From an uncultured Owenweeksia sp. (lineage in GTDB: Bacteria; Bacteroidota; Bacteroidia; Flavobacteriales; Schleiferiaceae), in contig CAKZRR010000026.1 of assembly GCA_937146805.1 (NCBI GenBank), positions 1 to 64,000 of the forward strand: DNA of 64,000 nt, written 5' to 3'. Position numbers and translations under genes: made by a program. Positions within the stretch are counted from its first letter, which is position 1, and the number at the start of each line of letters is the position of its first letter. Of this stretch, positions 9,525-20,478 are shown in pieces. The notes under the pieces were generated by a model. The model was not told the DNA's origin. It saw only the letters and a list, made by a program, of their open reading frames with translations, and made no database searches.

Positions 9525-9596
9525 GGCGCGAAAATAAAGATTTAGACCTTTGTCCGCTTCATTGTACCCTGTAGATCACTAAATTAATCTTAGCCC

Positions 9597-11069
9597 TTAT
9601 TTTTCAAACAGCACCTTTACCGAATACACATTTTGCGCTCCTATAATTTGGAGTACACAAGGGCCTAAAACGCCCTCTTTTACTGCTATTTGAATATCCG
9701 CACTACTCAAAGCGCCTTGCTGTAGCAAACGGCCATCCATACTGTACAATTCGTAACTATAACGCTCTGTATTTTGGGGGAAGTTTATATGCAATACATC
9801 TTTAGCAGGATTGGGATGTACCTGAATCAACTCATCTTCAGCAACCCTCTCTTTTAAGCCAATGCCGGGCGTGCTGCAAACCGCATTAGGGCCGTGGAGG
9901 TAATCGCCATCAAAATAACTAAGGTAACTTACACTATCTCCATTAACAGTTGTTGGGTTTTTAAAAGCTACAAACAAAGTATCGTTAACGATACCAAAGG
10001 ATACTGGCGCGCTCCCAAAACTGGCAGGCGTACCACACCACTGATGGCCGTTCCAACCTGCAAGATAGGAAATGGCAACATCACCGAACTTATGGGAAGT
10101 GCTGAGACCTCCATTGATGTTACAGTACAAAATGGTATCATGGGCAAAGAGATCTTTTACAAAACCCACCGTTCCACCACCAACATTTTCCCAACTACTT
10201 CCATTCCATTTTGCGATATGATTTCCAGGGTCTTGAGGATACACCATCTTATCAAAAGTTCCTCCCATATAAAGATTTCCTTCAAAAAATTCAAAATCGT
10301 AAGTTTTTGAAAAGATTCCAGCTAATCCTGAGCCATATGAATGCCACTGATGACCATCCCAGCGGCAAATACCTCTAAACACACTTCCAATATTTGAACC
10401 GTTGTTGATTGTTAGAATATCACCATTGGGTAAGATTTTCAATTTTTCGATGGCTCCAAAATTCGCCAAAGTATCAGTGGGGTGAGTGATTGAATAAGGG
10501 TACATCCATGAGCTGCCCTTATCTGGTGTCATGAAGTGGGTATAGGTAAATGATGAATCCTTGGGATTATAATAACTCCCGCCCCAAACAAGCAAAGAAT
10601 CTCCTTTAACAGACATATCATCTACAACGTAGACTGGGCCGGAGCTATTCACTTTTGAACTTGTCCATAAACTATCGTCATACCATTTTAAGAGGAACGT
10701 TGAAGGAAGTTGAACTGAGTCTTTATCCAAAACAATCTCTTGAAAAACCCCTCCTATGTATAGAGTATCACCATACATTTCGATGTCACTTGCCACATTT
10801 GCATAATATCCAGAAAATGGTAGCGAATGCCAACTCCCACCAAGCCTGTACGCAACGCATCTACGAATTGAATCAGAATCATACCACCCTCCAACTATCC
10901 AATCTCTACCTAATGGCCCATCCGATACAAAATTTACCTCAAAACCGTAGGCAGAGGCGCCTAGCTGACGAGAATGGAACCCATTCATTGCAGGTTTCCA
11001 GTCCTGAGCATAAACTCCAGTGCCAGCACAAGCAAACAGAAGTAAACTACAGCTTAATAACTTTAGCAT
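9597..11069 (-). CDS. Secreted T9SS type A cargo protein, propeller-like (tandem copy 1)
   Basis: Large secreted protein exported by the type IX system. The preferred start is the ATG at 11069, giving signal peptide MLKLLSCSLLLFACAGTGVYAQ and 490 aa; an upstream in-frame ATG at 11123 would add 18 residues. The body has repeated blades of the form W-G-D-x-L-Y-I-G-G with WDGHQWHSYGSG or WNGSSWENVGGG, as in galactose-oxidase/kelch-like propellers used for surface display. The last 80 or so residues (HPNPAKDVLHINF onward, ending VKVLFEK) are a type A sorting domain. The next gene upstream is a paralogue with the same architecture and nearly the same C-terminus. No catalytic residues are recognised. 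Confidence 0.85.
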   Translation of the reverse strand: MLKLLSCSLLLFACAGTGVYAQDWKPAMNGFHSRQLGASAYGFEVNFVSDGPLGRDWIVGGWYDSDSIRRCVAYRLGGSWHSLPFSGYYANVASDIEMYGDTLYIGGVFQEIVLDKDSVQLPSTFLLKWYDDSLWTSSKVNSSGPVYVVDDMSVKGDSLLVWGGSYYNPKDSSFTYTHFMTPDKGSSWMYPYSITHPTDTLANFGAIEKLKILPNGDILTINNGSNIGSVFRGICRWDGHQWHSYGSGLAGIFSKTYDFEFFEGNLYMGGTFDKMVYPQDPGNHIAKWNGSSWENVGGGTVGFVKDLFAHDTILYCNINGGLSTSHKFGDVAISYLAGWNGHQWCGTPASFGSAPVSFGIVNDTLFVAFKNPTTVNGDSVSYLSYFDGDYLHGPNAVCSTPGIGLKERVAEDELIQVHPNPAKDVLHINFPQNTERYSYELYSMDGRLLQQGALSSADIQIAVKEGVLGPCVLQIIGAQNVYSVKVLFEK

Positions 11070-11146
11070 TGTAATATTTGTTAAGTGTGATGGTATAAAG
11101 TCCCTTTTTTTAGTTTGAAACAAGCAGCACGCTTTTTACGAAAAAA

Positions 11147-12658
11147 CTATTTTTCAAACAGCACCTTTACCGAATACACATTTTGCACTCCTATAATTTG
11201 AAGCACACAAGGGCCTAAAACGCCCTCTTTTACCCTTATTTTATTTTGTGCCTTGTTTAATGCGCCCTGTTGTAGCCTGCGCCCATCCATACTGTACAGC
11301 TCGTAATTATAACGCTCTGTATTTTGGGGGAGGTTTACATATAAAACTTCTTTGGCGGGGTTGGGGTATATCATAATAGCTCCCTCCTTTTTTAACTCTG
11401 CTTGCCCAATGGTAGGGGTGCTGCAAATGGCATTGGGGCCGTTTAAATAATCACCATCAAAGTACATTACATGATCTACGGGTTTGCCGTTTACCGTTGC
11501 ATTTGAGTATGGGGGCTTTGAGCTAAAGTTTAAATACAAAGTATCATTTATAAAACCCATGCGCTCGGGTGTTGCCGATAGATTATCAATACCTAAAGGC
11601 GTACCGCACCACTTTTCGCCATCCCAACCTGCAAAACTAGGAATGTGCACATCTCCAAATTTATGATGCGAGTAAATCCCTCCACCTATAAAAACATACA
11701 ATATGCTGTCATGCTCTATTATATCGCGTACTCCTCCTTCCATAATGCCTCCGCCCAAACCTTGCCAATCGGTACCATCCCAGCGGGCAATACTATTTAC
11801 TGGCGGATCGTTTGGGTTAAACCATATCGTATCTCCGTAAAAAGTACCATACGTGCCAAAACTGCCTCCCAAATACAGTTCTCCATTATAAAATTCAAAC
11901 TCCGTAGCAGCCGTATGATGCATGCTGCCCGGATAGTTGCCGTAGCTATGCCATTGTTGACCATCCCACCTAATTAAACCTTTATAGGCAGATGAAACGG
12001 GTCCTTCATCATTTAGCTTTAAAATATCTCCATTATCTAAAATTTGAGTTTTTTGATGAATCCCAAAACTTGGATATTGACCCGTATCAGTAGGGTGTGT
12101 TATACTAAAAGGATACTGCCAAGTTTGAGCCCCATCAACCGTCATAAAGTTGTTACCTATAATAGCTTGCGGGGGTTTATGATAGTGAGCCCCTGCTATT
12201 AACAATGAATCGCCCTTGGTAGCCATTGCTTTTACGCGCCATACATGATCAGATCCCGACCAAAAACTATCTTGATGATACATTAACAAATTAGTTTGTA
12301 TGGCTACTGTACTACTGTCTTTTTCCCATTCCATGGGGCGCATATCACCTCCAATACACATGGTATCGCCCCACATGGCCAAATCATTAACCGCTCCTAT
12401 ATAATTTGTTTTAATAGGCAAGGGCACCCACTTACCCCCACTGCGGTAGGCAACATAACGCAACACAGAGTCCTTATCTAAAAACTGACCATATATCCAA
12501 TCTTTACCCAACGGCCCATTGGCCCTAAATTTAATAGGCAACTCTGCACCACCTATTATCTGATTGTGAAACAAGCCATCCATAGCTGGTTTGAGCAATT
12601 GCCCCATAGAAACATGACAAAACACACTAAGAAAAATGGCTAAAAGAATGCTACGCAT
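11147..12658 (-). CDS. Secreted T9SS type A cargo protein, propeller-like (tandem copy 2)
   Basis: Paralogue of the downstream gene, 503 aa, same layout. Signal peptide MRSILLAIFLSVFCHVSMGQ is followed by propeller-like blades (LYLGGSFG, IARWDGTDWQGLGGG, GWDGEKWCG) and a type A sorting domain (YPNPAKEVLYVNLPQNTERY onward, ending VKVLFEK). The body has diverged clearly from copy 1, with small insertions, but the sorting domain is almost identical at DNA level. The 77 nt to the preferred start of copy 1 hold no obvious terminator, so the pair may be co-transcribed. Probably a surface or secreted protein; ligand or substrate unknown. Confidence 0.85.
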   Translation of the reverse strand: MRSILLAIFLSVFCHVSMGQLLKPAMDGLFHNQIIGGAELPIKFRANGPLGKDWIYGQFLDKDSVLRYVAYRSGGKWVPLPIKTNYIGAVNDLAMWGDTMCIGGDMRPMEWEKDSSTVAIQTNLLMYHQDSFWSGSDHVWRVKAMATKGDSLLIAGAHYHKPPQAIIGNNFMTVDGAQTWQYPFSITHPTDTGQYPSFGIHQKTQILDNGDILKLNDEGPVSSAYKGLIRWDGQQWHSYGNYPGSMHHTAATEFEFYNGELYLGGSFGTYGTFYGDTIWFNPNDPPVNSIARWDGTDWQGLGGGIMEGGVRDIIEHDSILYVFIGGGIYSHHKFGDVHIPSFAGWDGEKWCGTPLGIDNLSATPERMGFINDTLYLNFSSKPPYSNATVNGKPVDHVMYFDGDYLNGPNAICSTPTIGQAELKKEGAIMIYPNPAKEVLYVNLPQNTERYNYELYSMDGRRLQQGALNKAQNKIRVKEGVLGPCVLQIIGVQNVYSVKVLFEK

Positions 12659-12802
12659 AGCGGTGGCAGTTTGGTTGGTTTAAAGAAGTTGTTAAAGTAG
12701 TGAAGATACCACAAACTTTGCAACACCATTTAGTTTACGGTTTTTGGTTTACCGATATGTAAAATAAAAGAACGCTTTATTTTACTTTAGCCAGCACTCA
12801 AA

Positions 12803-13741
12803 ATGCTATTCATGAAAAATGCCTTCTTGTTTTTAATTTTCGCGCTTTCTGCTATTGGCAGCCAAGCCCAAAACCTCTATTCCAAATCCTTTGGCGAAAA
12901 GCAAAACCCCGCCTTAATTTATTTACATGGTGGCCCCGGTTACAACTGCTCTAATTTTGAGGTAAGCACCGCCAACACTTTGGCCAAAGCCGGCTTTTAT
13001 GTAATTGTATATGATAGGCGTGGTGAAGGCCGATCGGAGGATGCGGCAGCTGCTTATACTTTTGAGCAAACGTTGCAGGATTTAAACGCACTGTATGAGC
13101 AATACCATTTAGAAAAAGCCACTTTACTAGGGCATAGCTTTGGCGGCATGGTGGGCATTAAATACGCAGCACAATTCCCCAAAAGGGTAAAAAATTTGGT
13201 GTTGATTGGCGCGCCTATTTCTTTACAGGAATCTTTTAAAACCATACTGGCTACCGTAAAACCCATTTACCTAGCCAAAGAGGATAAAACCAACCTCAAC
13301 TATATTGCTATGTTAGAGAATATGGACAGCAGCAGCCTGCAATACAGCTCGTATTGTTTTATGCACGCCATGCAAAATGGTTTTTACAGCCCTGCAAATT
13401 CAAACCCTAAAGCTACAGAGTTGTACGCCCTTTTTAAAACCGACAGCATTTTAAAAAACTATGGCGCCAAAATGGGTTATGCTGCCCCCCAAGGTTTTTG
13501 GAAAAACGAACAATACACCACGCTTGATATGACCGCCGAATTACAAAAAACACTTAAACAAGGCACTGCGGTATATGGGCTGTATGGCAAAGAAGATGGC
13601 TTGTACTCGGAAAAACAAGTACTGGATTTACAAGCTTTATTGGGCGCTGAAAACTTGCTGTACCTAGAAAACTGCTCACACAATGTATATATAGACCGGC
13701 AGGTTGCTTTTATACAGTTTATTGAAAAAGTAGAACGTTAA
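12803..13741 (+). CDS. Secreted alpha/beta hydrolase (proline iminopeptidase-like)
   Basis: Alpha/beta-hydrolase fold enzyme of 312 aa with an N-terminal signal peptide (MKNAFLFLIFALSAIGSQAQ). The ATG at 12812 is an alternative to the one at 12803. Visible residues: oxyanion-hole motif HGGPG (42-46), as in proline iminopeptidases; nucleophile S112 in LGHSFGGM; probable acid D265 (GKEDGLY); H293 (CSHNVYID). A helical cap at about 140-240 separates the halves. The signal peptide points to a periplasmic or secreted hydrolase, and the substrate is not inferable. Its stop overlaps the convergent response-regulator gene by 4 nt, so the two are not co-transcribed. Confidence 0.85.
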   Translation: MLFMKNAFLFLIFALSAIGSQAQNLYSKSFGEKQNPALIYLHGGPGYNCSNFEVSTANTLAKAGFYVIVYDRRGEGRSEDAAAAYTFEQTLQDLNALYEQYHLEKATLLGHSFGGMVGIKYAAQFPKRVKNLVLIGAPISLQESFKTILATVKPIYLAKEDKTNLNYIAMLENMDSSSLQYSSYCFMHAMQNGFYSPANSNPKATELYALFKTDSILKNYGAKMGYAAPQGFWKNEQYTTLDMTAELQKTLKQGTAVYGLYGKEDGLYSEKQVLDLQALLGAENLLYLENCSHNVYIDRQVAFIQFIEKVER

Positions 13742-14373
13742 AGCAAACCCCAATCCATCGCTTTCTTTATCATTCCTACTGAGTTCTTTACGTCCATTTT
13801 TACAAAAAGGTTGCGCTTGTGAGTAGCCACGGTGTTGGTGCTAAGAAACAAGGTATCGGCAATTTGTTGGGTAGTATATTGTTGGGCTATTAACTTTAAA
13901 ACCTCCAGTTCTCGTCTGGTTACTTTAGGTATAAGTCCAGCCGATGGTTTTGGTTTTCCGCTTAAACTCTCTATCATTTTTAATGTTAAATGCGGACTCA
14001 ATACTTTATTCCCCTCATAAGCATCCTTTATGCCTTGAATCAAAACTTCTTTAGATGAGTTTTTCAATAAATATCCGGTAGCCCCTTTTTTGAAAATGGT
14101 AGTAATAATGCTGCCCTCATCATTGGTAGTAAGCATAAGAACCCTCACTTCCGGGTATTGCTTAGATACATGCTCCAAGGTTTGCAAACCGTCCATTTTG
14201 GGCATTTGTAAATCCAATAAAAGCACATCAATTCTTTTTGTTTTTAAAACCTCCAAAGCTTCCAGCCCATTGCCTGCGGTAGCTACCACTTTAAGCTTAG
14301 TATCTGTCTCTAAGATTGCTTTGATGCCATCCAATAAAATCTGATGATCGTCTGTAATTAATATTCGAATCAT
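13738..14373 (-). CDS. NarL/LuxR-family response regulator
   Basis: Cytoplasmic transcription regulator, 211 aa. The receiver domain (1-120) has acidic pocket D8/D9, phosphoacceptor D54 (LLLDLQMPKMDG), the switch threonine in LMLTT and conserved lysine near 104 (YLLKN). After a short linker, a LuxR-type helix-turn-helix (about 147-205) reads TRRELEVLKLIAQQYTTQQI through STNTVATHKRNLF. It follows the histidine kinase gene by 3 nt and is certainly its partner. Targets are unknown; the divergent sulfur operon and the kinase operon itself are the nearest candidates. Confidence 0.93.
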   Translation of the reverse strand: MIRILITDDHQILLDGIKAILETDTKLKVVATAGNGLEALEVLKTKRIDVLLLDLQMPKMDGLQTLEHVSKQYPEVRVLMLTTNDEGSIITTIFKKGATGYLLKNSSKEVLIQGIKDAYEGNKVLSPHLTLKMIESLSGKPKPSAGLIPKVTRRELEVLKLIAQQYTTQQIADTLFLSTNTVATHKRNLFVKMDVKNSVGMIKKAMDWGLL

Positions 14374-14376
14374 AAA

Positions 14377-16311
14377 CTAGCTTTTTGAATTTGATGAATC
14401 CATCGTTTTGGCCATCAAAGGAATGTTAATGCTTAATAAGGTACCTCTTCCTATTCGGCTATCAATCTCGTACTCGCCACCAATAGAGTTTACTCTAAAG
14501 GCCATGCTCTTAAGTCCCATTCCATGATTTTCTGAAACAGCTTTTGGATCAAATCCCTTTCCATCATCCTCAAGGGTAAGGTTTAATAAATCATGGCTAT
14601 AAATAAGTTGAAGGACTACTTCACTCGCCTCTGCGTGATTCACTATATTATTTATGGCCTCTTGTATTACCCTAAAAAGCATCATATTTTGATGGTCATC
14701 CAACAATTGCTCCTCTCCATAGGTTTCGAAAAGAGCATTTACCCCTGCCCTATTATCTAGATTTCTCATTTGATCTTCCAGCGCTTTTTTAAGGCCCAAT
14801 CTTTCCAATGCTTGCGGCATCATTTCATGCGCTATTTTTCTAACCTCTGTGCAGGCATCGTCTATCATTAGGTTTACAGCCACATACGTTTGTGAATTTA
14901 CTGCAGATTCTATGCACTCGTTCATGGCTCCAATACTAATCTTTAAGCCCGAAAGCATATTACCTAGTCCATCATGCAAATCCCGTGAAACACGCGCCCT
15001 TTCCTTTTCCTGTCCCTCCAGCATGGCCAACATAGCTATCTTTTGCTGTTCTTGCTTAGCCCTTGTTAGCTGTAAGTGTTTGAATCGTAATCTATTTTGA
15101 AAAATTAGCAATCCAATAATAAGTACCAATACCACTATCCCCAAAAAAAATAGTAGCACACTAACCTGTTTTTCCTTTTTACGACTCTGCACTTCCTCTT
15201 CTAGCAACCTAAGCCTTAACTGATCTTGCTCGTATTTTATTTTTAAATCTGCAAAACCCTTTAAACTGGCATTGCTTAGCTTACTTTCTTCATTAATCTG
15301 TTTTTCCTTTAGCAATAAATCATACGCTTTTTCAAAGTTTCCATAAGCCAAAGCCTTTTTTCTGCGAGCCTTTAATATACCGGGTATAAAAGAGGTTCGC
15401 CCTTTTTTTAATGCAATCGCTTCTGCTGTATCAAGCATAGCACTACTATTTACAAAACCCATCTGCTTGATTTGTCTACTTACTACAAGACTATCGGTGG
15501 TAGCTGTATCATGTATCAAAGAGGCCAATTCTATCAATACTTCTACAATGGCTACATTTTCAATTTGGTTTCTATAATTATACGATTGCGCAAAGTGATG
15601 CACCGCTTGATCAGTTTGCCCCAAGAGCTTAAATGAATTACCTAAACCAAAATACACCCTACCTAGACTAACCTCTCTTTGAGGCTTCTCATTTAAAAGA
15701 ATCTGCAGCGTGCGGTTATACATAGTTATTGCCAAATCAGGGTTTCCCAATTCATTTTGTGTAACCCCCAAATTATTTAAAATCGAAGCTTGCCTTTTAT
15801 CATTTCCTAATTCCTCAGACAACGCTAAGGCTTTCTCTAGACTAACCTTAGCTTCCTCAAACGATTTATACTCCAACATTATACTGGCCTTGGTATTATA
15901 CACTGCAGCTTGGCCACTTTTGTTTTCCATTTGCTCAAAAAGGTGCAGAGCGCTATCTAAATAAGCAGTTTTTTTATTTACCTCTTTGTAACCAAGGCAC
16001 CATGCTAAGGCGTTAAACGATTTCGCAATAAGCAAGGGGCTGTTTAAGTTTTTGGCCAATCGCAATGCTCTTTGAGCATTATTTTCTGCAGTAGCACCAC
16101 TATACTGTGCCAATGATAAACTCACCAAATACTCGCATTTAAGCGAATCGGGCGGCAGTTCTTCTATCAATAAAGTAAGGCTATCTATTTTATTTGTGCT
16201 GCCAAAAACAACTACACTGCACAGCACACAAGCCATCAGCACTAGTACTTTTAATTGGTTGCCAAAACCACCAGCAGTCGCTATTCTACGTAAAAACCCA
16301 CTCTTTTTCAT
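14377..16311 (-). CDS. Membrane sensor histidine kinase with TPR sensor domain (HisKA_3)
   Basis: Sensor kinase partner of the NarL-type regulator. I prefer the ATG at 16311 (MKKSGFLRR), giving 644 aa with a hydrophobic segment at about 21-37; an in-frame start at 16380 would add 23 residues. A periplasmic region follows with four or five tetratricopeptide repeats (clearest: AAVYNTKASIMLEYKSFEEA and ASILNNLGVTQNELGNPDLA), then a transmembrane helix at about 383-404, a HisKA_3 dimerisation helix with the phospho-histidine near 446 (ARVSRDLHDGLGN), and a HATPase_c domain (NHAEASEVVL, DDGKGFD, GMGLKSM). TPR-type HisKA_3 kinases are frequent in Bacteroidota and the signal is usually unknown. Confidence 0.92.
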   Translation of the reverse strand: MKKSGFLRRIATAGGFGNQLKVLVLMACVLCSVVVFGSTNKIDSLTLLIEELPPDSLKCEYLVSLSLAQYSGATAENNAQRALRLAKNLNSPLLIAKSFNALAWCLGYKEVNKKTAYLDSALHLFEQMENKSGQAAVYNTKASIMLEYKSFEEAKVSLEKALALSEELGNDKRQASILNNLGVTQNELGNPDLAITMYNRTLQILLNEKPQREVSLGRVYFGLGNSFKLLGQTDQAVHHFAQSYNYRNQIENVAIVEVLIELASLIHDTATTDSLVVSRQIKQMGFVNSSAMLDTAEAIALKKGRTSFIPGILKARRKKALAYGNFEKAYDLLLKEKQINEESKLSNASLKGFADLKIKYEQDQLRLRLLEEEVQSRKKEKQVSVLLFFLGIVVLVLIIGLLIFQNRLRFKHLQLTRAKQEQQKIAMLAMLEGQEKERARVSRDLHDGLGNMLSGLKISIGAMNECIESAVNSQTYVAVNLMIDDACTEVRKIAHEMMPQALERLGLKKALEDQMRNLDNRAGVNALFETYGEEQLLDDHQNMMLFRVIQEAINNIVNHAEASEVVLQLIYSHDLLNLTLEDDGKGFDPKAVSENHGMGLKSMAFRVNSIGGEYEIDSRIGRGTLLSINIPLMAKTMDSSNSKS

Positions 16312-16496
16312 TCCTATAAAGGTACTTGTAATTAAGTAGTCACTATTCACTCTTTTCGTTGATTTTATCTCCTCACACAATAGTGTTAACTAAATCCCCT
16401 AAAACGCTCATTTTTAAATATCATGGTAATAGATGTGGTACGGGTTACTAGGCTAAATGACATTTGTCCCAGCAATAATCCAAAAGATTAACCGCC

Positions 16497-16988
16497 ATGA
16501 AAGATCACAATTTAATATCTAAAAAACGCCTTAACAGGCTGCGCCAGCAAGGTTATAAAAAGCAGAACGATGCAGAGTTGAGTAAACTGGCTTTTGGTAA
16601 CCGATTTGCCTTTATTATATGCACCAGCCTCTTACTAATTGGTATTGGTTCGCAAAATATAACACTCTTAAGTGTTATGCTAGGTATTGCCTTTTTAGGC
16701 GTAATTCTACCCTACCACCCATTCGATTACATCTACAATTATATAGTGGTACCTAATACCAAACGACCCAAGCTGCCACGTAGATCCGAACAGCTCAAGT
16801 TTGCCTGTACCATGGCTAGCCTTTTCATAGCCTCCATCATTTTTTTGTTTATCAACAACTTTAATACAGCAGCATACACAGTAAGTGCCATTCTACTTGT
16901 AATAGCTGTGCTTGTAGGTACCACAGATTTTTGTCTTCCATCCATTATGTACAATCGTCTATTCTTAAAAAATAAACCTCGCCCTTAA
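16497..16988 (+). CDS. DUF4395 family membrane protein, first gene of sulfur operon
   Basis: Integral membrane protein of 163 aa. A basic N-terminus (LNRLRQQGYKKQ) precedes about four hydrophobic segments (roughly 38-60, 62-77, 100-120, 124-142). The arrangement, with a cytoplasmic loop PYHPFDYIYNYIVVP between the first and second pairs, fits DUF4395, a family often near or fused to rhodanese or thioredoxin-type proteins. Three cysteines are present, one at the C-terminal end of the last helix (TDFCLPSIM). The role is unproven; a membrane partner or channel for a small sulfur species is inference from context. It is 46 nt upstream of the rhodanese gene and divergent from the sensor kinase. 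Confidence 0.7.
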   Translation: MKDHNLISKKRLNRLRQQGYKKQNDAELSKLAFGNRFAFIICTSLLLIGIGSQNITLLSVMLGIAFLGVILPYHPFDYIYNYIVVPNTKRPKLPRRSEQLKFACTMASLFIASIIFLFINNFNTAAYTVSAILLVIAVLVGTTDFCLPSIMYNRLFLKNKPRP

Positions 16989-17034
16989 AAAAGGCTCATT
17001 AATCACCAATAATAAACGCTTAAATCCTTTTACA

Positions 17035-17382
17035 ATGAATACTATCGAAACACCCGAATTACAGTTAAAATTATTAATCAGCCATCCAAATTTTAAACTG
17101 GTAAACGCTTTGGAACCTACCAAGTTTCGCCTCAAGCACATACCCGGGTCTATTAACATTTTCAATTCAAAAGACATTTCGAAAAAGCTGGATAAGGAAA
17201 ATGAGATTGTGATTTACTGTTCAGATTACTGCTGTAAAAAAAGCATTAGTTTATACTACCAGCTAGTTGATTTGGGCTACCAAAACGTAAGACGCTATGC
17301 CGCTGGTTTAACCGAATGGGAAAAATACGGACTCCCACTAAGAGCTTCAGCCTTAGGATCTCATGTGTTACTAACCCGTTAA
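17035..17382 (+). CDS. Rhodanese-like sulfurtransferase
   Basis: Single rhodanese domain, 115 aa, no signal peptide, so cytoplasmic. The expected elements are present: substrate-strand FRLKHIPGSINI (about 31-42), the catalytic loop beginning VIYCSDYCCKKS with C62 at the canonical nucleophile position, and the C-terminal VRRYAAGLTEWEKYGLPL. C66 and C67 in the active loop are unusual and could stabilise or pass on a persulfide. It likely carries sulfane sulfur between operon partners; it could also act on thiosulfate. It is 7 nt upstream of the methyltransferase gene. Confidence 0.85.
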   Translation: MNTIETPELQLKLLISHPNFKLVNALEPTKFRLKHIPGSINIFNSKDISKKLDKENEIVIYCSDYCCKKSISLYYQLVDLGYQNVRRYAAGLTEWEKYGLPLRASALGSHVLLTR

Positions 17383-17389
17383 TATAAAA

Positions 17390-18178
17390 ATGATGATAGC
17401 TACTAAAAACACAACTCAGGTAGATGCCAAGGCCTTAGAGCAAAAAGTAAAAATGATGTATACGGACGTGGCAGAAAGACCAAAAGAACCTTACCATTTT
17501 GAGATGGGCCGCCAACTAGCCGAAAGACTGGGGTACCCAGCCAGTAAGCTTAATAAAATCCCTGCCGAAGCCATTGAATCCTTTGCAGGCGTGGGCCACT
17601 TTTTTGACTTAAGTCATATTAAACCAGGAGACCACGTGGTTGACCTAGGTAGTGGCTCTGGCTTAGATGCCTTTTATGCTGCGCAATTAGTGGGTCTTTC
17701 TGGAAAAGTTATCGGTATAGATATGACACCCGCTCAAATAGAAAAAGCCAACCGTTTAAAAACCAAAAACGGCTTTGCGCAGGTGCAGTTTGTTGAGAGT
17801 TATATCGAGCAAATACCCTTGCCGGATGCCAGTGCTCATACCGTGATAAGCAATGGTGTAGTAAACCTATCGAGCGATAAAGAAGCTGTTTTTAAAGAAG
17901 CCGCCAGAGTATTAAAACCAGGCGGACGTCTAGTACTTGCCGATATTGTGAGTAACCAAACTCTTCCCGAATCAATAACATGCAATGCCTCGCTTTGGGC
18001 TGCCTGCATAGGAGGTGCCATGCAAATTGATGCGTACATAAAACTAATAGAATCTGCTGGGTTAACGGTAATAGCTACCGTTACCAACCCTTACCAATTT
18101 ATTTCAAATAGTGCCCAATCTGCTACAAGGGATTACGGTATTAAAAGTATTTCACTAATGGCCGTAAAGGCTTCATAA
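17390..18178 (+). CDS. ArsM-like SAM-dependent methyltransferase lacking the first ArsM cysteine
   Basis: Class I SAM methyltransferase of 262 aa. The SAM site is clear: motif I DLGSGSGLD (85-93), acidic strand end GIDMT (109-113), and RVLKPGGRLVLADI (173-186). The layout, including SNGVVNLSSDKE and CNASLWAACIGGAMQIDAYIK, resembles arsenite methyltransferases and their relatives. Only C198 and C206 are present. ArsM enzymes usually carry a cysteine right after motif I (GxDC), where this protein has GLDAF. No arsR, arsB or arsC gene is nearby. Arsenic methylation is therefore doubtful; methylation of sulfide, a persulfide, or selenium or tellurium is possible but unproven. It lies inside the sulfur operon. 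Confidence 0.82.
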   Translation: MMIATKNTTQVDAKALEQKVKMMYTDVAERPKEPYHFEMGRQLAERLGYPASKLNKIPAEAIESFAGVGHFFDLSHIKPGDHVVDLGSGSGLDAFYAAQLVGLSGKVIGIDMTPAQIEKANRLKTKNGFAQVQFVESYIEQIPLPDASAHTVISNGVVNLSSDKEAVFKEAARVLKPGGRLVLADIVSNQTLPESITCNASLWAACIGGAMQIDAYIKLIESAGLTVIATVTNPYQFISNSAQSATRDYGIKSISLMAVKAS

Positions 18179-18205
18179 ATAAACCCCAATTTAAAAACTA
18201 TCAGT

Positions 18206-18571
18206 ATGTCAAACAGTAAAAAATTAGTTGTTGTTCTTACCAAAAATGCCAACAACGATGTGTCGTCAGTAGCCTTTACCATTGCCAATGCGGCATTAAG
18301 CAAAGGAACCGAAGTAGGTATATTTTTAACCTCAGATGGTGTGGAACTTAGTAAAGCCGGAGCTACCGAGTTTACGCATGTACCTCCTTTTAAAAAGCTG
18401 AACGACCTTATCGAAAATTTTACTTCTAACGGAGGAGTACTTTGGTCCTGCGCACCTTGTTTTAATCATCGCGGATTACCCGCTGATGAAACGGTGCCAG
18501 GAGCAGAGATAGTAGGTGCTGGCCCAATGCTCGATTGGGTTACCAATGGAGCGCAAACACTTTCATTTTAA
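18206..18571 (+). CDS. DsrE-family sulfur-carrier protein
   Basis: Soluble protein of 121 aa with the DsrE fold: a KLVVVLTKN first strand, helix with AFTIANAALSKG, GIFLTSDGVEL, and a C-terminal AEIVGAGPMLDWV. Two cysteines sit in a CAPC motif (C82 and C85, in LWSCAPCFNHRG), the position where DsrE-like proteins hold a reactive cysteine able to carry a persulfide. DsrE proteins commonly work with TusA, rhodaneses and cysteine desulfurases. Its neighbours here, 27 nt after the methyltransferase and 25 nt before the cysteine desulfurase, fit a relay role. The direction of transfer is unknown. Confidence 0.83.
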   Translation: MSNSKKLVVVLTKNANNDVSSVAFTIANAALSKGTEVGIFLTSDGVELSKAGATEFTHVPPFKKLNDLIENFTSNGGVLWSCAPCFNHRGLPADETVPGAEIVGAGPMLDWVTNGAQTLSF

Positions 18572-18596
18572 TTGATTTTTGCAATTTTTTGTTAAA

Positions 18597-19748
18597 ATGA
18601 AACAGGAACACATATATCTTGATTCGCACGCAACTACGCGTGTGGATCGAGATGTTCTGCATTGTATGATGCCCTACTTTACCGAACATTATGGTAATGG
18701 GAATCATGCCCTAGGCTGGAAATCGGATGCGGCCATAGAAAACGCACGTGTTCAGGTTGGTCAGTTAATTGGTGCCAAACCCAGTGAGTTTATTTTTACT
18801 AGTGGCGCAACCGAAGCCATTAACCTGGGGTTACTAGGACTCGCAAAAAACAATGACTCTGGTCGTAATCATATTATTAGCCAAAAAACAGAGCACGCTG
18901 CCGTATTGCAAACTTTACAGCAACTTGAGCAAGAAGGTTATAAGATAACCTTGTTAGATGTAGACCCCGTTGGTAGGATAAAACTAGAAGACCTTAAAGA
19001 AGCTATTTCTGAAAACACATTTATGGTGGCCATTATGTTATCTAACAATGAAATTGGCACCATACAACCCATTCATGCTATTGGTGAAATCTGTAAAAAA
19101 TGGGGTAGCCTTTTCTTTTGTGATCTTACCCAAGGGGTAGGTTGGTATAATTTAAACCTACAAACCCTGCCCATAGACTTAGCCGCTTTTTCTTCGCATA
19201 AAATTTACGGCCCAAGAGGGGCAGGAGCCCTATTTGGCCAAAAAAAACTATTAAAAAAATTAGCGCCCATTATGTATGGAGGTGGCCAAGAAAAGGGATT
19301 AAGACCCGGAACCGTAAATTTACCAGCCATAGTAGGCTTTGGAAAAGCTTGTGAAATAGCCTTTCAAAACGCTAAAAATATCACACCCAAAATAGAGACG
19401 CTCCGTAATTATTTTCAAGATCGCCTCTTTTCTGCAATTCCTGGCATTCGGTTAAACGGTTGCCCCGAAAACAGACATCCTGGTAACCTTAATATTTCCA
19501 TTGATAATGTTTCGGGAGAAGAACTGGCGGGGCAATTACCTCAACTTATTTTCTCGAACTCCTCCGCTTGTACTAATAATAAAACATCTCATGTATTAGC
19601 AGCACTCCCTAATAAATCTGCATTAGCCAACGAAAAGTCTTTGCGCTTTGGCATTGGAAAATACAATACAGCAGAACAAATAGATTTAGCCGCTCAAAAA
19701 ATTATTAATGCTGCCCATATTTTACTTCAAAAAAAGGCGAGAATTTAA
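18597..19748 (+). CDS. Cysteine desulfurase (IscS/NifS-like)
   Basis: PLP enzyme that removes sulfur from cysteine and holds it as an enzyme persulfide. The ATG at 18597 gives MKQEHIYLDSHATTRVD and 383 aa; a TTG 18 nt upstream is also in frame. Key positions match IscS closely: H100 (KTEHAAV), D176 (FFCDLTQG), PLP-lysine K202 (FSSHKIYGPRGAG) and persulfide cysteine C325 in SSACTNN. Two tail sequences differ from housekeeping IscS (SNSSACTNNKTSHVL), and no IscU/SUF genes are adjacent. This suggests a dedicated sulfur supply for the upstream rhodanese/DsrE genes. Last gene of the operon; its stop overlaps convergent marC by 4 nt. Confidence 0.93.
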   Translation: MKQEHIYLDSHATTRVDRDVLHCMMPYFTEHYGNGNHALGWKSDAAIENARVQVGQLIGAKPSEFIFTSGATEAINLGLLGLAKNNDSGRNHIISQKTEHAAVLQTLQQLEQEGYKITLLDVDPVGRIKLEDLKEAISENTFMVAIMLSNNEIGTIQPIHAIGEICKKWGSLFFCDLTQGVGWYNLNLQTLPIDLAAFSSHKIYGPRGAGALFGQKKLLKKLAPIMYGGGQEKGLRPGTVNLPAIVGFGKACEIAFQNAKNITPKIETLRNYFQDRLFSAIPGIRLNGCPENRHPGNLNISIDNVSGEELAGQLPQLIFSNSSACTNNKTSHVLAALPNKSALANEKSLRFGIGKYNTAEQIDLAAQKIINAAHILLQKKARI

Positions 19749-20320
19749 TCAAAAAGCTGTTGTACGTTTTCGGAAAACAATTTCACAGCAATCGCTAAAC
19801 AAATAATACCAAACACTTTTCGCAATACGCCAATACCCGCCTTACCAATTTTACGCTCAATTAGCGGAGCACTTTTTAACACGACATATACCAAACCGCA
19901 GTTTAACAAAATAGCCACCACTATATTTTCGGCAGCGTACTCCGCTCGTATAGAAATAATAGTAGTAAGCGTTCCGGCTCCCGCTATAAGCGGAAATGCA
20001 ATGGGTACAATAGAAGCTGCTTTGGGCTCTTCATCTTTAAAGAGGTTTACGCCTAAAATCATTTCCAGTGCTAAAATTAACAGCACAAACGATCCGGCCA
20101 CGGCAAACGAGTTCACATCTACCCCTAAATATTGCAGTAAGGTATCGCCCACAAACAAAAAGGCAATCATAATACCACCTGCCACCAGCGTGGCACTACC
20201 ACTTTGAATTTTACCTGCCGTTTGGCGTAAGCTTATAATAATAGGAATACTGCCAATAATATCTATTACAGCAAATAAAACCATGGCGGCCGAAAATATT
20301 TCTTTTATACTGAAATTCAT
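19745..20320 (-). CDS. MarC-family integral membrane protein
   Basis: Inner-membrane protein with about six transmembrane helices. The ATG at 20320 (MNFSIKEIFSAAMVLFAV) gives 191 aa, the family's usual length; an upstream ATG at 20392 would add 24 polar residues unlike MarC. Family signatures visible are DIIGSIPIIISL in TM1, a glycine-rich AFPLIAGAGTLTTI loop and a terminal GIICLAIAVKLF helix. The function of MarC proteins is unsettled; the old link to multiple antibiotic resistance was not confirmed. It converges on the sulfur operon with a 4-nt overlap of stop codons. Confidence 0.9.
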   Translation of the reverse strand: MNFSIKEIFSAAMVLFAVIDIIGSIPIIISLRQTAGKIQSGSATLVAGGIMIAFLFVGDTLLQYLGVDVNSFAVAGSFVLLILALEMILGVNLFKDEEPKAASIVPIAFPLIAGAGTLTTIISIRAEYAAENIVVAILLNCGLVYVVLKSAPLIERKIGKAGIGVLRKVFGIICLAIAVKLFSENVQQLFD

Positions 20321-20478
20321 GACGTTAGCGCTATTTTTTGAAATTTTCGGCAAAAGTACTGTGCCTTTTTTAATTGGCGTGTTTTGTTGCACTTTTCTTT
20401 TATCATTTGGTTAATAAAATGGTGTTTAATTTAAAGGATGAATCTCTTTAACCACTAGGGCTGTTGCACTTCAAGCGC

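Follow-up and report, generated by a model that had tools for sequence, protein, structure and literature searches.

Positions 13738–19748 of the window (the whole 64,000-nucleotide stretch analysed) may constitute an accessory, signal-responsive module for sulfur relay and methylation, a reading that we hold tentatively and at somewhat less than an even chance. It draws on gene order, protein families, intact catalytic residues, the linkage of a methyltransferase to a DsrE protein, that of a two-component system to the cassette, and the absence of the methyltransferase from congeners, each established at the level of sequence. The operon comprises five ORFs, all on the plus strand (16497–19748), separated by successive gaps of 46, 7, 27 and 25 nt. 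A DUF4395 membrane protein (16497–16988; 163 aa; PF14340, 62 bits against a gathering cut-off of 24.5) is followed by a single-domain rhodanese (17035–17382; 115 aa; PF00581, 46.5 bits, cut-off 22.2), an ArsM-like SAM methyltransferase (17390–18178; 262 aa; Pfam Methyltransf_31, 110.9 bits, cut-off 27), a DsrE-family protein (18206–18571; 121 aa; PF02635, 53.8 bits, gathering cut-off 22.7) and a class I (IscS/NifS-like) cysteine desulfurase (18597–19748; 383 aa counted from the ATG; Aminotran_5, 253.3 bits, cut-off 21.5). ORF calling and Pfam searches reproduced the coordinates, strand, gaps, families and catalytic residues given for these genes in a preliminary description; the unit that it drew, whilst right for the five genes, is too small, as a two-component system (13738–16380) also forms part of it.

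This system lies on the minus strand and consists of a response regulator with receiver and LuxR/GerE HTH domains (13738–14373; Pfam Response_reg 97.5 bits, GerE 59.4) and a sensor histidine kinase of TPR–HisKA_3 architecture that is transcribed away from the operon (14377–16380; Pfam TPR_12, HisKA_3, HATPase_c), the true start of which is probably at an ATG downstream of the longest-ORF start. On sequence grounds we assign the pair to the cassette block because a full-length relative of the kinase occurs in the family only beside the cassette: across 88 family genomes the sole full-length match is in the cassette-bearing G018 (44% over residues 45–657), other matches being 24–36% identical and mostly to the kinase half alone. 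An orthologue of the response regulator, 68% identical, is found at locus L043, beside the kinase and the cassette. The gap between kinase and operon (16381–16496, no strand) is, from its position, a probable promoter/operator region; a consensus promoter scan of it scored no better than shuffled sequences, and an Rfam search found no RNA. The block occupies a site that is variable between relatives, and the methyltransferase is absent from three congeners.

A same-strand DsrE gene adjoins the methyltransferase in 17 of the 49 other bacterial loci retrieved (18 of 50 with the window counted), upstream in some and downstream in others, and on the methyltransferase tree this linkage must have been gained or lost at least eight times; DsrE is not adjacent in about 60% of the retrieved methyltransferase loci. 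The repeated neighbourhood across bacteria makes joint action of the two proteins probable, and supports the earlier proposal of a sulfur-handling system over chance neighbours. The operon DsrE protein carries a C82-x-P-C85 (CAPC) motif, the first cysteine of which falls, in the alignment to 3mc3, on the one that marks the DsrE active site; the reference for this equivalence is the active-site cysteine of sulfur-trafficking DsrE proteins (PMC4175335). Both cysteines are invariant in the 18 methyltransferase-linked DsrE proteins aligned, whose motifs are of the CAPC, CTPC, CSPC, CPPC and CPAC types; a UxxC motif has been described in DsrE-like selenoproteins (PMC13188914). No second close DsrE copy was found in 345 genomes of the phylum and 321 of the order, and a plasmid search for DsrE returned relatives of about 32% only. 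An OsmC gene lies directly upstream of the methyltransferase, in the place of DsrE, in five of six haloarchaeal loci, and other thiol-redox partners near relatives include AhpD-type proteins and a ResA-like thioredoxin. A literature search for OsmC with sulfane sulfur found nothing, and we therefore claim no link between OsmC and persulfide. Further recurrent neighbours, namely second ArsM-like methyltransferases, ECF sigma factors and cupins, need not have any connection to sulfur.

The complete five-gene set was found in the present genome only, although subsets of it are widely recurrent, so that the refuting condition set out earlier gives a mixed answer. At the Allomuricauda locus L078, the methyltransferase (61% identical), DsrE (70%) and desulfurase (55%) occur in the same order as in the window, together with a ResA-like thioredoxin gene, whilst a Schleiferiaceae relative has DUF4395, rhodanese and methyltransferase only; each of these trios thus recurs in another Bacteroidota lineage, in keeping with a system. 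The 'complete route' from cysteine sulfur that had been suggested is unestablished, since the full set is confined to this genome. Other sulfane-sulfur genes also appear around methyltransferase relatives, as ArsR–rhodanese fusions (L084, L091, L101, L125 and L128) and as rhodanese/metallo-beta-lactamase proteins with sub-threshold Blh matches (L099 and L101).

The desulfurase retains H100, D176, K202 (the PLP lysine), C325 (the mobile-loop cysteine) and R350 (in SLRFGIG), yet misses both IscS equivalog cut-offs (TIGR02006, 360.6 bits against 643; NF010611, 371.1 against 548), so that it is more safely called 'class I, IscS/NifS-like'. That it is the organism's sole IscS, which had been named as a point that would count against a system, is rejected: the genome holds three desulfurases, the others being SufS in a suf operon and a NifS-like enzyme on another contig. 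Its sister is the Allomuricauda cassette enzyme, with which it shares a YGNGNH deletion and DxTQGVGW, and to which it is 55% identical, the next best among 295 class genomes reaching about 47%; these comparisons rest on correctly extracted alignment rows and BLAST identities, the mis-extracted rows (L002, L003, L131, L137, L138, L141 and L149) having been left out. All three rhodanese cysteines reported previously are present, and the active-site C62 is kept in the only close orthologue (L043, 41% identical); C66 and C67 are missing from it (loop YCEDRFGLRS), and a functional role for these two is not supported. The DUF4395 protein (53% identical to its L043 orthologue) carries a conserved FC(L/I)PS close to its C-terminus, at a position taken by FCxGC in most of the other DUF4395 proteins. 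Its predicted model is all-helical (pLDDT 78) and a structure search returned chance helical-bundle matches, none informative, so neither a transport nor a redox function can be read from the model and the exported product proposed earlier is not supported. Elsewhere DUF4395 is partnered by rhodanese (L052) or thioredoxin (L055). Nothing on such a module came up in literature searches, whether these paired DUF4395 with rhodanese or combined DsrE with methyltransferase and desulfurase.

In the mechanism that we favour, the sensor kinase and regulator would turn the operon on, and persulfide sulfur would be generated by the desulfurase from cysteine, or by the rhodanese from other sulfane-sulfur donors. 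This sulfur would be loaded onto C82 of DsrE and either shared with C85 or resolved by it. The methyltransferase would then dock on DsrE and use SAM to methylate the bound sulfur, or a released small thiol or persulfide, and the resulting methyl thiol or methyl persulfide could exit the cell. Through DUF4395 the relay may be coupled to thiol redox at the membrane, or to sulfur entry. The joint action of methyltransferase and DsrE is thus pictured as, most likely, methylation of sulfur, the presumed substrate. The core would be the methyltransferase with a thiol-redox partner (DsrE or, in haloarchaea, OsmC or an AhpD-type protein), to which desulfurase, rhodanese and DUF4395 would be lineage-specific additions. 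Several points count against a relay-and-methylation module: the full set was found in one genome, most retrieved loci have no adjacent DsrE, some recurrent neighbours may be unconnected with sulfur, the haloarchaeal partners of the methyltransferase differ from DsrE, and a desulfurase, which supplies sulfur, would be more at home in biosynthesis or thiolation than in detoxification.

Desulfurase, rhodanese and DsrE might instead add sulfur to a specific acceptor (small molecule, protein or RNA), with the methyltransferase capping the thiol in a methylthio biosynthesis. We consider this unlikely, though it deserves weight: the enzymes are class-typical sulfur donors, the desulfurase would be the sulfur source as in tRNA and natural-product thiolation, and the Allomuricauda sister cassette likewise includes one. 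The block, however, has neither an adenylylating activating enzyme (ThiI/MnmA/MoeB-like) nor a recognisable acceptor or biosynthetic gene, and in most relatives the methyltransferase–DsrE pair occurs without a desulfurase.

Rather improbable is metalloid detoxification, in which a methyltransferase for arsenite (or antimonite, selenium or tellurium) would work with thiol-redox partners. The methyltransferase has a class I SAM fold related by sequence and structure to ArsM and AS3MT (about 30% identity); its model (pLDDT 91, pTM 0.90) has ArsM 4fr0 as top PDB match (TM 0.70), and C206, invariant across 41 aligned relatives, corresponds to ArsM C174. NCBIfam, moreover, includes ArsM-like selenoproteins fused to AhpD; these and related methyltransferase selenoproteins (NF041537 and NF047649) likewise combine an ArsM-like domain with a thiol (or Sec) redox partner, whereas the operon proteins lack Sec, are encoded separately and have a partner of another family. 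The position of ArsM C72 is V68, also invariant in the 41 relatives and aligned with the changed residue of the C72A mutant (5eg5), and C224 has no equivalent, as the sequence has no cysteine beyond residue 206. With two of the three arsenic-binding cysteines missing, arsenite is an unlikely substrate, selenium or tellurium being conceivable ones, and the designation 'ArsM-like' is apt for the fold and not for the cysteine set. The protein also scores under the NCBIfam arsenite methyltransferase threshold (NF008823, 215.8 bits against 263) and well under those of NF041537 (199 bits) and NF047649 (191 bits). Its relatives, 53–61% identical and spread over several bacterial phyla and haloarchaea, have their own motifs (the signature 'ESFAGVG ... 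WAACIGGA', and HFEMGR) and are linked to DsrE or OsmC rather than to ars genes; the neighbourhoods contain no recognised ars transporter or reductase, and the ArsR genes examined are rhodanese fusions. Variovorax beijingensis and Azoarcus sp. Aa7 are carriers of the methyltransferase that are in cultivation.

Still less probable is a module against electrophile or peroxide stress, with the methyltransferase modifying a small organic thiol or mending a damaged one and DsrE, OsmC, AhpD and thioredoxin as reductants; the recurrence of the last three partners and nearby stress-type regulators (ECF sigma/zf-HC2 and a ChrR-like cupin) suit it, whereas the desulfurase and rhodanese of the window cassette are left unexplained. 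A loose collection of genes of like chemistry at a variable locus, without joint function, is the least probable: it accords with the single sighting of the full set and the changing site, and it is opposed by the repeated methyltransferase–DsrE linkage, the full-length kinase found only with the cassette and the compact plus-strand operon.

Amongst known sulfur systems, the Rhd-TusA-DsrE and dsrE3A-dsrE2B-tusA modules of sulfur oxidisers (PMC4175335) resemble the operon in having a small DsrE carrier with an active-site cysteine, often clustered with rhodanese. The operon differs in having the methyltransferase and DUF4395 in place of Hdr/Dsr genes, and a Cys-x2-Cys rather than the Cys-x7-Cys of DsrE3A; no match to TusA was found among its five proteins with Pfam. 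The H2S/methanethiol S-methyltransferases MddA, MddH and MddM1/MddM2 (PMC12904073) share the proposed SAM-dependent methylation of reduced sulfur; MddM1/MddM2 (204–210 aa, UbiG/UbiE-family) and MddH (UbiE-family) are set apart by their description, and that paper mentions neither DsrE nor rhodanese. Mammalian TPMT, a SAM methyltransferase that S-methylates hydrosulfide, polysulfide and persulfide (PMC13089183), is alike in the proposed reaction, but is a different methyltransferase with no protein sulfur carrier.

We also regard as possible, though doubtful, that the pair represents an undescribed and widely scattered DsrE-coupled S-methylation, in which an ArsM-derived enzyme would receive its sulfur substrate from a persulfide-carrying protein; in the present block this system would have gained a desulfurase and rhodanese of its own, a membrane protein and a two-component sensor. 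Were DsrE-bound or DsrE-delivered persulfide indeed methylated, protein sulfur relays would be connected to S-methylation, and a function would be provided for a methyltransferase family of several bacterial phyla and haloarchaea that the profile searches match only as sub-threshold 'arsenite methyltransferase'. The methyltransferase–DsrE pair is small, probably soluble and experimentally tractable; it would offer a bacterial counterpart to the recently described mammalian methylation of reactive sulfur species, and a possible origin of volatile methylated sulfur.

The main finding is a recurrent methyltransferase–DsrE gene pair, around which, in the window lineage, a sensor-linked accessory block is built; the sulfur-system reading of the preliminary description is thus partly supported, whilst its ‘complete route’ from cysteine sulfur to a product, and the export of that product, are unsupported. 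The five plus-strand genes (16497–19748; gaps of 46, 7, 27 and 25 nt) were verified as described, as were the residues named in their products, and a Pfam search confirmed each family: in order, a DUF4395 membrane protein, a rhodanese, an ArsM-like methyltransferase, a DsrE protein and a cysteine desulfurase. The gene unit extends beyond these five and includes, by their Pfam domains, a TPR-HisKA_3 sensor kinase (14377–16380), divergent from the operon and directly upstream of it, and beside it a LuxR-type response regulator (13738–14373), also divergent. Among 88 family genomes, a near-full-length kinase match occurs only in G018, a Schleiferiaceae relative (44% over residues 45–657), the remaining matches being 24–36% identical and mostly limited to the kinase half; G018 also holds the family's only close methyltransferase relative outside the window genome (57% identical). 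Its locus L043 (apparently one contig with L090) has the regulator and kinase divergent from DUF4395–rhodanese–methyltransferase, with no DsrE or desulfurase gene after the methyltransferase. As regulator, kinase and the first three operon genes occur together in G018, the regulator pair and these three genes are co-inherited.

In the window, genes for an alpha/beta hydrolase and MarC flank exactly the seven genes at 13738–19748. In the congener G003, the tRNA synthetase gene is followed by those for an alpha/beta hydrolase, a 176-aa protein and MarC; in the relative G002 two other genes separate synthetase and MarC, and in G018 these directly adjoin. Between the class II tRNA synthetase gene and MarC (9575–20410 in the window), gene content differs in each relative examined. 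No close methyltransferase was found in three congeners, one of them a complete genome. The block behaves as a single accessory unit, either gained or lost, at a variable site.

The predicted methyltransferase structure (pLDDT 91, pTM 0.90) is nearest to ArsM (TM 0.70). ArsM binds arsenite through C72, C174 and C224, and structure entries 5eg5 and 5jx7 are its C72A and C224A mutants, respectively. C174 is retained in the window protein as C206, but the C72 position is occupied by V68, which is invariant across the family, and an equivalent of C224 is absent, there being no cysteine after residue 206; the enzyme is ArsM-like, not an ArsM.

A locus scan with a four-member methyltransferase alignment, at one genome per species, gave 53 loci, and a usable methyltransferase was present in 50 loci (window counted, duplicates removed). 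A same-strand DsrE gene lies within 1.2 kb of the methyltransferase, before or after it, in 18 of the 50 (window included), a fraction that is not a census because the retrieval patterns favour close relatives. Both cysteines of the CxPC/CPAC motif are invariant in the 18 linked DsrE sequences. On the maximum-likelihood methyltransferase tree the DsrE label (19 rows, including L082 and L121, added on weaker evidence) requires 11 changes, at least eight of them forced by well-supported branches. The labelled rows belong to Bacteroidota, Pseudomonadota and Myxococcota, a pattern of recurrence not expected of a chance neighbour. DsrE of the window type is otherwise rare: searches of 345 genomes from the phylum and 321 from the order found no close one.

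The window DsrE motif is C82-A-P-C85, and C82 aligns with a cysteine of the DsrE-family structure 3mc3. This is a relative of DsrE3A, for which the active site has been established as the first of the conserved cysteines (PMC4175335). The UxxC motif of DsrE-like selenoproteins (PMC13188914) would fit a reactive first cysteine in DsrE. A CPPC-type DsrE (33% identical), followed by an apparent stand-alone rhodanese gene, occurs in a complete Flavobacteriales-order genome (L182:1091-1875). On the Paracoccus ferrooxidans plasmid pFER4 (L198) a cysteine desulfurase is divergent from TusA-DsrE, with a methionine-synthase-like gene and selA further on, a cluster of a different sulfur/selenium type.

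The closest cassette, Allomuricauda L078, runs methyltransferase (61%), ResA-like thioredoxin, DsbD-like protein (labelled by eye, without a Pfam match), DsrE (70%), Dabb-domain protein and desulfurase (55%). The window and L078 desulfurases share a YGNGNH deletion and a DxTQGVGW segment; the next-best desulfurases in 295 class genomes are approximately 47% identical, and those correctly extracted have neither feature. The window enzyme, most plausibly starting at ATG 18597, has the complete catalytic set (H100, D176, K202, C325) and scores under the IscS equivalog cut-offs. It is not, as had been considered, the organism's sole IscS-type enzyme: the genome also encodes SufS, within a suf operon (recognised by eye), and a separate NifS-like enzyme, so it need not serve housekeeping. 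As a sulfur source, it keeps alive a biosynthetic alternative, in which sulfur would be put into a specific acceptor and the methyltransferase would then cap the new thiol.

Within the phylum DUF4395 is itself common, occurring in 121 of 395 genomes, and elsewhere it adjoins rhodanese (L052) or thioredoxin (L055); in family f32 many of the genomes sampled (e.g. L071, L076) carry the gene. The three rhodanese cysteines emphasised previously, C62, C66 and C67, are all present, but an orthologue retains C62 alone, and C66 and C67 therefore have no conserved role. In Ramlibacter/Variovorax, a DUF4395 gene, then a kinase and response regulator, are divergent from DsrE-methyltransferase; Comamonadaceae loci L113:4797-6408, L117:4795-6418, L115 and L130 show this arrangement, the histidine kinase after DUF4395 having an N-terminal cysteine-rich segment. 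Haloarchaeal megaplasmids carry the same methyltransferase at 52–57% identity. Of six such loci inspected, five (L192-L196) have an OsmC gene immediately before it, and the sixth has a carboxymuconolactone-decarboxylase gene there. A second ArsM-like methyltransferase recurs near relatives of the window enzyme (L079, L081, L083, L085, L095, L098, L104, L105, L106, L116, L119, L121, L123); in most cases an ECF sigma factor gene lies beside it, often together with one for a zf-HC2 anti-sigma factor.

ArsR-rhodanese fusions, and rhodanese/metallo-beta-lactamase proteins with sub-threshold Blh matches, also lie near methyltransferase relatives and point toward the sulfane-sulfur mechanism that we propose. 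The methyltransferase–DsrE step is proposed because the adjacency recurs, and a methylated product because such chemistry has been shown for other enzymes, Mdd methylating H2S/MeSH (PMC12904073) and TPMT methylating persulfides (PMC13089183). A signal would act through the kinase and regulator to switch on the operon; the desulfurase or rhodanese, judging from family chemistry, may then load a persulfide onto C82 of DsrE, to which the methyltransferase would pass a methyl group from SAM, yielding a methylated sulfur product.
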